Source: Mesoterricola sediminis (lineage in GTDB: Bacteria > Acidobacteriota > Holophagae > Holophagales > Holophagaceae). From it: 64,000 nt of DNA. The stretch is from positions 868,001 through 932,000 of the forward strand of contig NZ_AP027081.1 of NCBI RefSeq assembly GCF_030295425.1. The letters are read 5' to 3'. The notes below the pieces were generated by a model. That model saw only the letters and a program-made list of their open reading frames with translations. It was not told the origin of the DNA and ran no database searches. Positions 36,797 through 38,551 of the stretch are shown here, piece by piece. Position numbers and translations under genes: made by a program. Numbering within the stretch: position 1 is the stretch's first letter; the number at the start of each line of letters is the position of its first letter.

Positions 36797-36833
36797 GCAA
36801 AAAAAACCGGACAGCTGGGAGCTGTCCGGTTCT
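36797..36833 (-). terminator. Intrinsic terminator of the multihaem cytochrome gene
   Basis: A perfect 12-bp stem (36805-36816 with 36820-36831) with a three-base loop is followed on the minus strand by eight T residues (36806-36799). It lies 31 bases after the cytochrome stop and is a textbook Rho-independent terminator. Confidence 0.92.
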
Positions 36834-36862
36834 CCTGGAGGCCGGCGGGTGCCGGGTCCGGC

Positions 36863-38551
36863 CTACTTCTCGTCGGGGTCGCCGTGGGTGGGCAGGCCCT
36901 CCATCGGCTCGAGGGGGTGCTCCTCGTGCTGGTGGTGGGGGGTGATCTTGCCGTCGAGGAAGGCCCAGTTGACCGGGTAGACCTCGGGGTCCAGGAACAC
37001 GAAGTAGAAGTGCCAGACGATGATGGCGAGGGTGGCCAGGATCGCCTCGTAGTAGTGGACGGTGATGGAGACGTCGACGATCCAGCGGGGCATCCAGCGG
37101 GTGAAGTACATCTTGAACCAGATGAGTCCGCCCGTGGCGCCCATCAGGATCGTGCCCCACACCACGGCCCAGTACTCCATCTTCTCGGGGTAGCCGAAGC
37201 GCTTGAACTGGGGCTTGGGGGAGCCGGGCACGAGGAGGTACTTGAACTGGGCCAGGATGTCCGTGGCGTCCTTCAGTTCGGGGAGCATGTCCTTCACGAA
37301 CTTCCGGCCGTCGCGGGTGAAGATGTAGAACAGGTGGATGAAGCCGCCGGTGATCATCACCACGGCCGCGACGCGGTGGCCGATGCGGCGGACCACCTCG
37401 CTGGAGCCCATGCACCAGCCCAGCCAGCTGTTGGGGTACTTCAGGGCGAAGCCGCTGACCACGAGGAAGATGAAGCTGGAGGCCAGCATCAGGTGCTGGA
37501 TGCGGGCCGCGACGTTCATGCGGACGACAGTGCGGTTGGGATCGCGCAGGGAGGCCATGGCCTTCCGGCGGAGGAGCAGGAAGTTGTGGACGGCCATGAA
37601 GCCGATCGTCCCGAAGATGATCGACATGTAGATGGCCCGGACCCAGTGGTCCACCTTGGAGCTGAGGTCGGCGACGGCCTTCTTGTCCTGGTGGATCTTG
37701 CCGAAGCTGAACTTCTCGTTGGCGTTGGGGTGGCACTTGCCGCAGGTGGCGACGAGGTTGGCCTTGTTGATGGTGGAGCGCTCGTCGGAGGCGGGCAGCA
37801 CCAGGTGGTAGCCGTGGCAGCTGGCGCAGTTGGCCGCGTTGGGGGAGCCCATCTTGGCGGCCATGCCGTGGTAGCTCTCGAAGAAGGTGGTGACGCGGTC
37901 GTCAGGCAGGTCGAACTTGGCGTTCATGCGGGAGGAGCCGTGGCACCGGCTGCACACCTGCTGGGAGACCTTGATGGGGCTGGCGCTCTTGAGGCTCTCC
38001 AGGGCGTGGTCCGAGTGGCAGTCCGTGCAGACCGGGGCCTCCAGGACGCCGGCGGCCGTGGCCTTGCCGTGCACCGAGGCCTCGATGTCCTTCACCACCT
38101 CGGGGTGGCACATGCCGCAGGTGGTGTGGAGGTTCTCGCGCCGAACCGGGGATCCGACCGCGGTGGCCTTCATGATGTCGTGGGTGCCGTGGCACTCGGC
38201 GCAGCTGGCCGCGCCGGTGTTGCCGGCCTTGCGGGCCTTGCCGTGGGCGCTGGCCTCGTAGGTCTTGGCGGGCTTTTCGTGGCAGGAGGCGCAGGCGACC
38301 GGCGAGGACTTCTTGCCCGGGTGGGTGCCCAGGTCGACGTCCGCGTGGCAGCTGGTGCAGCCGTTGCCGCCGTGGATGGAGGCTTCGAATTTGCCCTTGT
38401 CCACGAAGGGCGCCTGGGGGCCCTTGGCATGGGCGGCGGGCTTCCGGCCGTGGCAGGCGAAGCAGGCGTCATCCGGGCCAGCGGGTTGGGCGGCGAAGGC
38501 CAGGCTGGACACCATGACCAGTAAGGCGGAACGTACGATTCCCAGGTTCAT
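36863..38551 (-). CDS. Nine-haem cytochrome c fused to a cytochrome b-type membrane domain
   Basis: A probable periplasm-facing quinol or electron-carrier oxidoreductase of 562 aa. A signal peptide (about 1-21, ending SSLAFA) is followed by nine CxxCH haem-c sites within residues 28-310 (CFACH, CTSCH, CASCH, CAECH, CGMCH, CTDCH, CSRCH, CASCH, CGKCH). Several extra His residues could be distal ligands. The C-terminal 240 residues form about five transmembrane helices with His residues positioned as in b561/formate-dehydrogenase-gamma-type cytochrome b (NFLLL, RIGHRVAAVVMITGGFIHLFY, HYYEAILATLAIIVWHFYFV). Such fusions move electrons between the quinone pool and periplasmic cytochromes. The ATG at 38551 has AAAGG upstream; a TTG one codon earlier is less likely. 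Single-gene transcript with a strong terminator. Confidence 0.9.
   Translation of the reverse strand: MNLGIVRSALLVMVSSLAFAAQPAGPDDACFACHGRKPAAHAKGPQAPFVDKGKFEASIHGGNGCTSCHADVDLGTHPGKKSSPVACASCHEKPAKTYEASAHGKARKAGNTGAASCAECHGTHDIMKATAVGSPVRRENLHTTCGMCHPEVVKDIEASVHGKATAAGVLEAPVCTDCHSDHALESLKSASPIKVSQQVCSRCHGSSRMNAKFDLPDDRVTTFFESYHGMAAKMGSPNAANCASCHGYHLVLPASDERSTINKANLVATCGKCHPNANEKFSFGKIHQDKKAVADLSSKVDHWVRAIYMSIIFGTIGFMAVHNFLLLRRKAMASLRDPNRTVVRMNVAARIQHLMLASSFIFLVVSGFALKYPNSWLGWCMGSSEVVRRIGHRVAAVVMITGGFIHLFYIFTRDGRKFVKDMLPELKDATDILAQFKYLLVPGSPKPQFKRFGYPEKMEYWAVVWGTILMGATGGLIWFKMYFTRWMPRWIVDVSITVHYYEAILATLAIIVWHFYFVFLDPEVYPVNWAFLDGKITPHHQHEEHPLEPMEGLPTHGDPDEK

Follow-up and report, generated by a model that had tools for sequence, protein, structure and literature searches.

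Can one polypeptide carry electrons from the quinone pool to the periplasm? The question is raised by a gene in a 64,000-nucleotide stretch of the Mesoterricola sediminis genome (hereafter, the window), in which the initial annotation recognized nine CxxCH motifs ahead of a five-helix cytochrome b-like domain, and this architecture is confirmed by the motif count, a match to PF01292, and the AlphaFold2 model. An AAAGG-like site lies ahead of the ATG start codon, and the gene encodes a protein in which a signal peptide is followed by nine CxxCH motifs and then by five predicted membrane helices. The gene, its exported part, and its end are marked by the following features:

36863..38551, minus strand: coding sequence of the fused nonahaem cytochrome c/cytochrome b (CbcL-like), 562 aa (open reading frame, motif and Pfam evidence)
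38492..38551, minus strand: predicted signal peptide, residues about 1–20 (model helix 3–20; hydrophobic segment 3–21)
37667..38491, minus strand: predicted periplasmic nonahaem c domain, residues about 21–295 (nine CxxCH; Pfam Cytochrome_C7, Cytochrom_c3_2)
36800..36836, minus strand: intrinsic terminator with a 17-pair stem, a 3-base loop, and a U run, just after the stop codon (fold)

The CxxCH motifs, at residues 30, 65, 87, 117, 145, 175, 200, 242, and 270, are far above chance for the composition of this protein: when its residues were shuffled 2,000 times, the mean was 0.04 motifs and the maximum one, and no other stop-to-stop frame of the window has two or more. The domain search of both halves, suggested along with the initial annotation, produced cytochrome c7/c3-type matches (Cytochrome_C7, Cytochrom_c3_2) and then PF01292 above its cut-off. 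Structurally, the c domain overlays multihaem proteins of the hydroxylamine-oxidoreductase type with VIA Z of 6.5–7.5, which is middling; chain 28pb_A matches a part of it by sequence (both as a single sequence and as a profile) and is not among the Foldseek or VIA fold matches of the fused protein. Among nine candidate distal histidines of the c domain, seven are present in all 55 aligned proteins, His60 in 49, and His77 in 46; for the c domain of CbcL from Geobacter sulfurreducens, the available excerpts report ten conserved extra histidines and bis-His coordination of all haems (PMC9129911/PMC6295460).

The protein has no second copy in its own genome at E 1e-3, the sole match being itself. 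Besides the fused gene, the genome contains four further PF01292 matches. As second copies, the PF01292 matches at L003 (a cytochrome b561/molybdopterin oxidoreductase fusion), L002 (a small cytochrome b561-like protein), and L005 (a bc-type cytochrome b) were rejected, the last two being identified from their translations.

In agreement with the initial annotation, no iron–sulfur or molybdenum subunit was found among the six neighbours tested (response regulator/histidine kinase, protein kinase, N-acetyltransferase, GreA, ClpX, and Lon), and the same six include no catalytic partner and no c-cytochrome, MtrB-like, mtoAB-like, or conduit gene. The strong terminator noted earlier is indeed present (hairpin at about 36800–36836, −29.7 kcal/mol, z −6.0), but by itself it does not establish expression as a single gene, as had been claimed. 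It is absent from the output of the consensus scan, probably as the U run is taken up into the stem; the consensus scan also gave no sigma-70-type promoter. Since the neighbouring gene upstream points the other way, the fused gene is likely transcribed alone. In a same-genus genome (G390), the fused gene again follows a kinase-like ORF on the same strand, and on its other side about 1 kb separates it from greA–clpX–lon (L064); an ORF within this 1 kb has no similarity to the N-acetyltransferase of the window at 1e-10.

The membrane half and its histidines

The PF01292 match covers residues 345–522 (40.4 bits vs. the Pfam cut-off of 30.1). The AlphaFold2 model, of moderate confidence (mean pLDDT 72.5, pTM 0.53) and built without haems, has an N-terminal signal helix (residues 3–20) and five long C-terminal helices (296–336, 347–371, 385–409, 454–478, 489–519), four of which were recovered as membrane helices by a simple hydropathy scan. 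Among solved structures, the top sequence match of the membrane half is FdnI (1kqf_C), with E of 5.9e-7 for the single sequence and 1.4e-19 for the profile. Foldseek with the model gave nothing at E 1e-3, the top hit being 1kqf_C at 1.5e-3, and the VIA overlay on the same chain has Z 8.2 over 183 residues with rmsd 6.0, such a Z alone being middling for helical proteins. Identity to FdnI is low (22% and 17% in the two fold searches). By its domain, sequence, and fold matches, the membrane half is homologous to this cytochrome b subunit. The top NCBIfam model is the formate dehydrogenase gamma subunit (TIGR01583); this assignment was rejected, as the score of 55 bits is below the cut-off of 115.85 bits and the six neighbours include no Mo or Fe–S genes.

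We take His18, His57, His155, and His169 of FdnI to be the ligands of its two haems b. Their counterparts, and two further invariant histidines, are located as follows:

36995..37666, minus strand: five-helix membrane domain, residues 296–519, the last four helices FdnI-like (Pfam, sequence and fold matches, model)
37493..37495, minus strand: H353, aligned to FdnI H18, putative haem b ligand on the cytoplasmic side (55/55 aligned proteins)
37376..37378, minus strand: H392, aligned to FdnI H57, putative haem b ligand on the periplasmic side (55/55)
37055..37057, minus strand: H499, aligned to FdnI H155, putative haem b ligand on the periplasmic side (55/55)
37010..37012, minus strand: H514, aligned to FdnI H169, putative haem b ligand on the cytoplasmic side (54/55, one gap)
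37586..37588, minus strand: H322, invariant, in the first (extra) helix, which has no counterpart in FdnI (55/55)
37334..37336, minus strand: H406, invariant, aligned to FdnI A67 (55/55)

The initial annotation had made its reading depend on the haem-b histidines of the membrane half, and these are kept, with His in 54–55 of the 55 proteins at the four FdnI positions. The same four positions are His in each of eight b-type ORFs of related loci, none of which has more than one CxxCH; four of these ORFs (L033, L040, L046, L049) are truncated at the edge of the locus and may belong to fused genes, and the other four have a stop upstream and hence are separate genes. The separate FdnI-like ORFs are L020:8536–9342 (plus strand), L022:7156–7869 (plus), L022:9205–10545 (plus), and L043:3429–4343 (minus). 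We thus see no sign of a lost haem-b site, and haem binding is predicted. The low identity to FdnI could be taken to point to a degenerate membrane anchor lacking haem b, with the protein being only a membrane-tethered nonahaem shuttle, but the conservation of the four ligand positions both in the fused proteins and in the b-type ORFs, four of them cut by the locus edge, makes this hardly credible.

After export of the c domain, the first helix (296–336) would return the chain to the cytoplasmic side, leaving the remaining four helices in the FdnI topology; in the FdnI orientation, His353 and His514 would be near the cytoplasm, and His392 and His499 near the periplasm. Positive charge in the stretch following helix 1 (five Lys/Arg, one Asp/Glu) and in the loop between helices 3 and 4 (nine Lys/Arg, five Asp/Glu) fits this proposed topology; the helix 4–5 loop (three Lys/Arg, no Asp/Glu) and the C-terminal tail (two Lys/Arg, ten Asp/Glu) conform less well to the positive-inside rule. 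In the proposed topology, both His322 and His406 are directed towards the cytoplasmic side.

Relatives and the history of the fusion

At the threshold of 1e-20, the protein has matches in 192 of 396 Acidobacteriota genomes, its own genome and matches to one half included. A single alignment over both halves, that is, from residue 170 or earlier to residue 515 or later, was found in at least 136 of the 396 genomes and at least 34 of the 39 genomes of its own family, these being lower bounds counted among 150 matches from 141 genomes. Thus, of the earlier suggestion that a single-gene quinone-to-periplasm conduit would be unusual, the conduit stands as the likeliest reading, given the retained haem-b histidines and no catalytic partner among the six neighbours, and the rarity is not supported. 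In three of the listed genomes (G357, G064, G269), the match contains an in-frame stop.

The scan of genome contigs yielded 18 loci, the nearest being 80% identical (Holophagaceae UBA692), followed by 48% in two Verrucomicrobiota MAGs and 37–39% in five Geothrix genomes; no Geobacter locus is among the 18. Two further genomes of the same family have proteins with 58% and 53% identity. In the plasmid collection, the fused protein has no match at 1e-10; at E 1, there are 110 records, 30 of which all match from residue 260 or later and, where annotated, are mostly formate dehydrogenase cytochrome b subunits. Side-by-side fused paralogues occur in L007, L008–L012, L014–L016, and L018, an 11-CxxCH form of about 620–638 aa being followed by a longer one (about 722–730 aa) that has an additional hydrophobic segment at its C-terminus; L007, from an Akkermansiaceae MAG, has a divergent pair whose shorter member carries nine CxxCH.

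The alignment and the trees comprise 55 proteins including that of the window (L022, L023, duplicates of the window gene, and ORFs shorter than 530 aa were excluded); some ORFs, L017 and L026 at the least, are truncated where their contigs end, and the start codons of the relatives were set by rule, not by evidence. The trees are quick ones, built without bootstrap, with long branches flagged for L019, L007, L021, and L017. Both the c-half and the b-half trees split a group of 11 long proteins, namely, ten with the extra C-terminal hydrophobic segment (tandem or divergent paralogues) and L019, from the 44 others. The phylogeny of the two halves, also suggested earlier, is concordant around the window protein: in both trees it groups with L006, L025, L026, and L027, four proteins from its own family, with the support of 93 for the c half and 96 for the b half, which argues that the two halves share their history there, and that the fusion is an old, common trait and no local accident. 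The two nine-haem proteins from Verrucomicrobiota fall within the clade of the window protein by the c half and outside it by the b half.

The number of CxxCH motifs varies: 38 of the 55 proteins have 11, 13 proteins have nine, three have 13, and one has 19. Two internal motifs seen in 48 of the 55 are absent from the window protein, L006, L025, L026, L027, and the two Verrucomicrobiota proteins; six proteins from other families (L029, L030, L032, L038, L039, L041) instead lack the first and the third motifs. Nine haems apparently have been reached by two routes, which suggests that this count is no single shared derived trait.

Proposed role and its rivals

The initial annotation held that the two functions usually reside on separate subunits. 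This does not agree with published data on the CbcL/MtoC/MtrH family of fused multihaem-c/cytochrome-b proteins, taken here and below from the available parts of the cited papers: CbcL of G. sulfurreducens has the same order in one polypeptide, with nine c haems in its N-terminal half and an FdnI/HydC-like di-haem b domain in its C-terminal half, and homologues, two of them from Acidobacteria, were catalogued across many phyla in 2018 (PMC9129911, PMC6295460). According to the same excerpts, CbcL has six helices, two b haems, bis-His coordination of all c haems, and an apparent potential of −194 mV, forms a redox complex with, and transfers electrons to, PpcA, and is required for low-potential acceptors (PMC9129911).

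We suggest, with a probability of about 0.6, that the protein is a five-helix member of this family acting as a menaquinol oxidase that feeds periplasmic and then outer-membrane cytochromes. Starting from the sequence, its motifs, the homology and fold resemblance, the conserved histidines, and the other cytochrome genes, we infer haem binding, the quinone chemistry and its side, the direction of electron flow, and the partners in the following way. The c domain would be exported, menaquinol would be oxidized near the cytoplasmic-side haem b (His353/His514), and electrons would cross to the periplasmic-side haem b (His392/His499). From there they would pass to haem 9, the c haem closest to the membrane, travel along the c-haem chain, and exit to periplasmic cytochromes, which would hand them on to an OmcA/MtrC-type outer-membrane cytochrome encoded elsewhere. 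We take the quinol site of FdnI to lie on the cytoplasmic side; if it does so here, the outward flow would oppose the membrane potential, and no energy would be conserved.

This role is supported by the nine CxxCH and PF01292 in one chain, the FdnI relationship with its retained ligand positions, the positive charges after helix 1 and between helices 3 and 4, and the concordant trees, as well as by the precedent of CbcL, which has the same architecture, and by the presence in the genome of NapC/NirT-domain, OmcA/MtrC-type, and small multi-CxxCH proteins. Paired CxxCH patterns occur at 14 places of the genome after grouping, the fused gene included; the genes named below come from the places read, a set that leaves aside those near 525 kb and 961 kb. 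The protein with a NapC/NirT domain and N-terminal hydrophobic segments is ImcH-like by reading, but has five CxxCH and two hydrophobic segments vs. seven and three, respectively, described for G. sulfurreducens ImcH in the accessible text (PMC6295460). There are also NrfH-like and, by reading only, NrfA-like genes, several small multi-CxxCH proteins, an OmcA/MtrC-type protein that has ten CxxCH in about 900 residues (L058:5350–8049, minus strand), and a flavocytochrome c (L061:3572–5317, minus strand), that is, a fumarate-reductase-type flavoprotein with an N-terminal four-CxxCH domain. The N-terminus of the OmcA/MtrC-type protein has a lipoprotein-like stretch followed by a collagen-like GTN repeat, and the flavocytochrome c is a possible alternative electron sink. 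The genome thus has components for extracellular or fumarate respiration, but they are unlinked. Weighing against the proposed role are the lack of an outer-membrane or periplasmic partner among the six neighbours, five helices instead of six, the moderate, haem-free model with no Foldseek match at E 1e-3, the charges of the helix 4–5 loop and the C-terminal tail, the ImcH-like protein falling short of the ImcH counts, and the flavocytochrome c as another destination of electrons.

The latter points to a different use of the same quinol oxidase, as a CymA-like hub mainly serving periplasmic reductases, e.g., the fumarate-reductase-type flavocytochrome c, and the several small multi-CxxCH proteins and the absence of a conduit gene among the six neighbours agree with that; nevertheless, we consider it rather unlikely, as the genome encodes the OmcA/MtrC-type protein, and the studied family members, in the available excerpts, are tied to extracellular acceptors or donors (PMC9129911, PMC6295460). 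The protein might also run in reverse, as a quinone reductase drawing electrons from outside, similarly to MtoC of Fe(II)-oxidizing bacteria. Cultured members of this lineage are known as heterotrophs, and no mtoAB-like gene is present among the six neighbours, which makes the reverse mode very improbable. In its favour, MtoC belongs to the same family, and the 2018 survey, in the part available, found no feature telling quinol oxidases from quinone reductases (PMC6295460).

Returning to the menaquinol oxidase, a more specific version is conceivable as a long shot: the protein would represent a compact five-helix branch widespread in Acidobacteriota, in which His322 and His406 serve either one more haem b, the third, or a quinol/proton site of a distinctive kind in a potential-spending single-protein quinol oxidase. 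If so, the membrane potential would be spent to reach low-potential acceptors. These two invariant histidines are singled out as worth mutating.

Comparison with known systems

As far as the available excerpts go, members of the CbcL/MtoC/MtrH family have 3–23 CX2CH, mostly six helices, with five in four members, and conserved membrane histidines (PMC6295460). CbcL and its kin have been named good markers of extracellular electron transfer/respiration (PMC12977616), both CbcL and ImcH homologues are reported for Desulfuromonas (PMC4914508), and for a sediment with cable bacteria, where a Holophaga and a Geothrix are present, cbcL is reported among the inner-membrane/periplasmic genes that most MAGs encode (PMC11748539), again by the accessible portions of these papers. 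Among the records listed by literature searches on CbcL in Geothrix or Acidobacteriota and on its fused forms, on Mesoterricola, and on Geothrix multihaem cytochromes (for one of these searches, the first 20 of 491), there is no study of the gene considered here.

Judged from its sequence, the fused protein is a member of the CbcL/MtoC/MtrH family, with which it shares a CX2CH domain followed by a multi-helix HydC/FdnI-like b domain with conserved membrane histidines; by the available excerpts, many mtrH and mtoC genes adjoin c-cytochrome or MtrB-like genes, whereas none of these is among the six neighbours here. With G. sulfurreducens CbcL it has in common nine c haems followed by an FdnI-like b domain in one polypeptide, but CbcL has six helices vs. 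five here; for this reason, and as Geobacter CbcL was compared by its published description, we call the protein a family member and not a CbcL orthologue. The fused pair of Geothrix (L011, L012, L014–L016) belongs to the same branch and is 37–39% identical in the best segment, but has 11 CxxCH and is adjoined by another fused gene, whose product likewise has 11 CxxCH and carries the extra C-terminal hydrophobic segment. Escherichia coli FdnI (1kqf chain C) shares the cytochrome b fold and the four histidine positions; unlike the fused protein, it has no c domain and serves formate dehydrogenase. The picture of how CbcL-type proteins work is unchanged, and what is seen here is an already published kind with a modest structural variation, extended to a genome where the fused gene stands apart from the other cytochrome genes.
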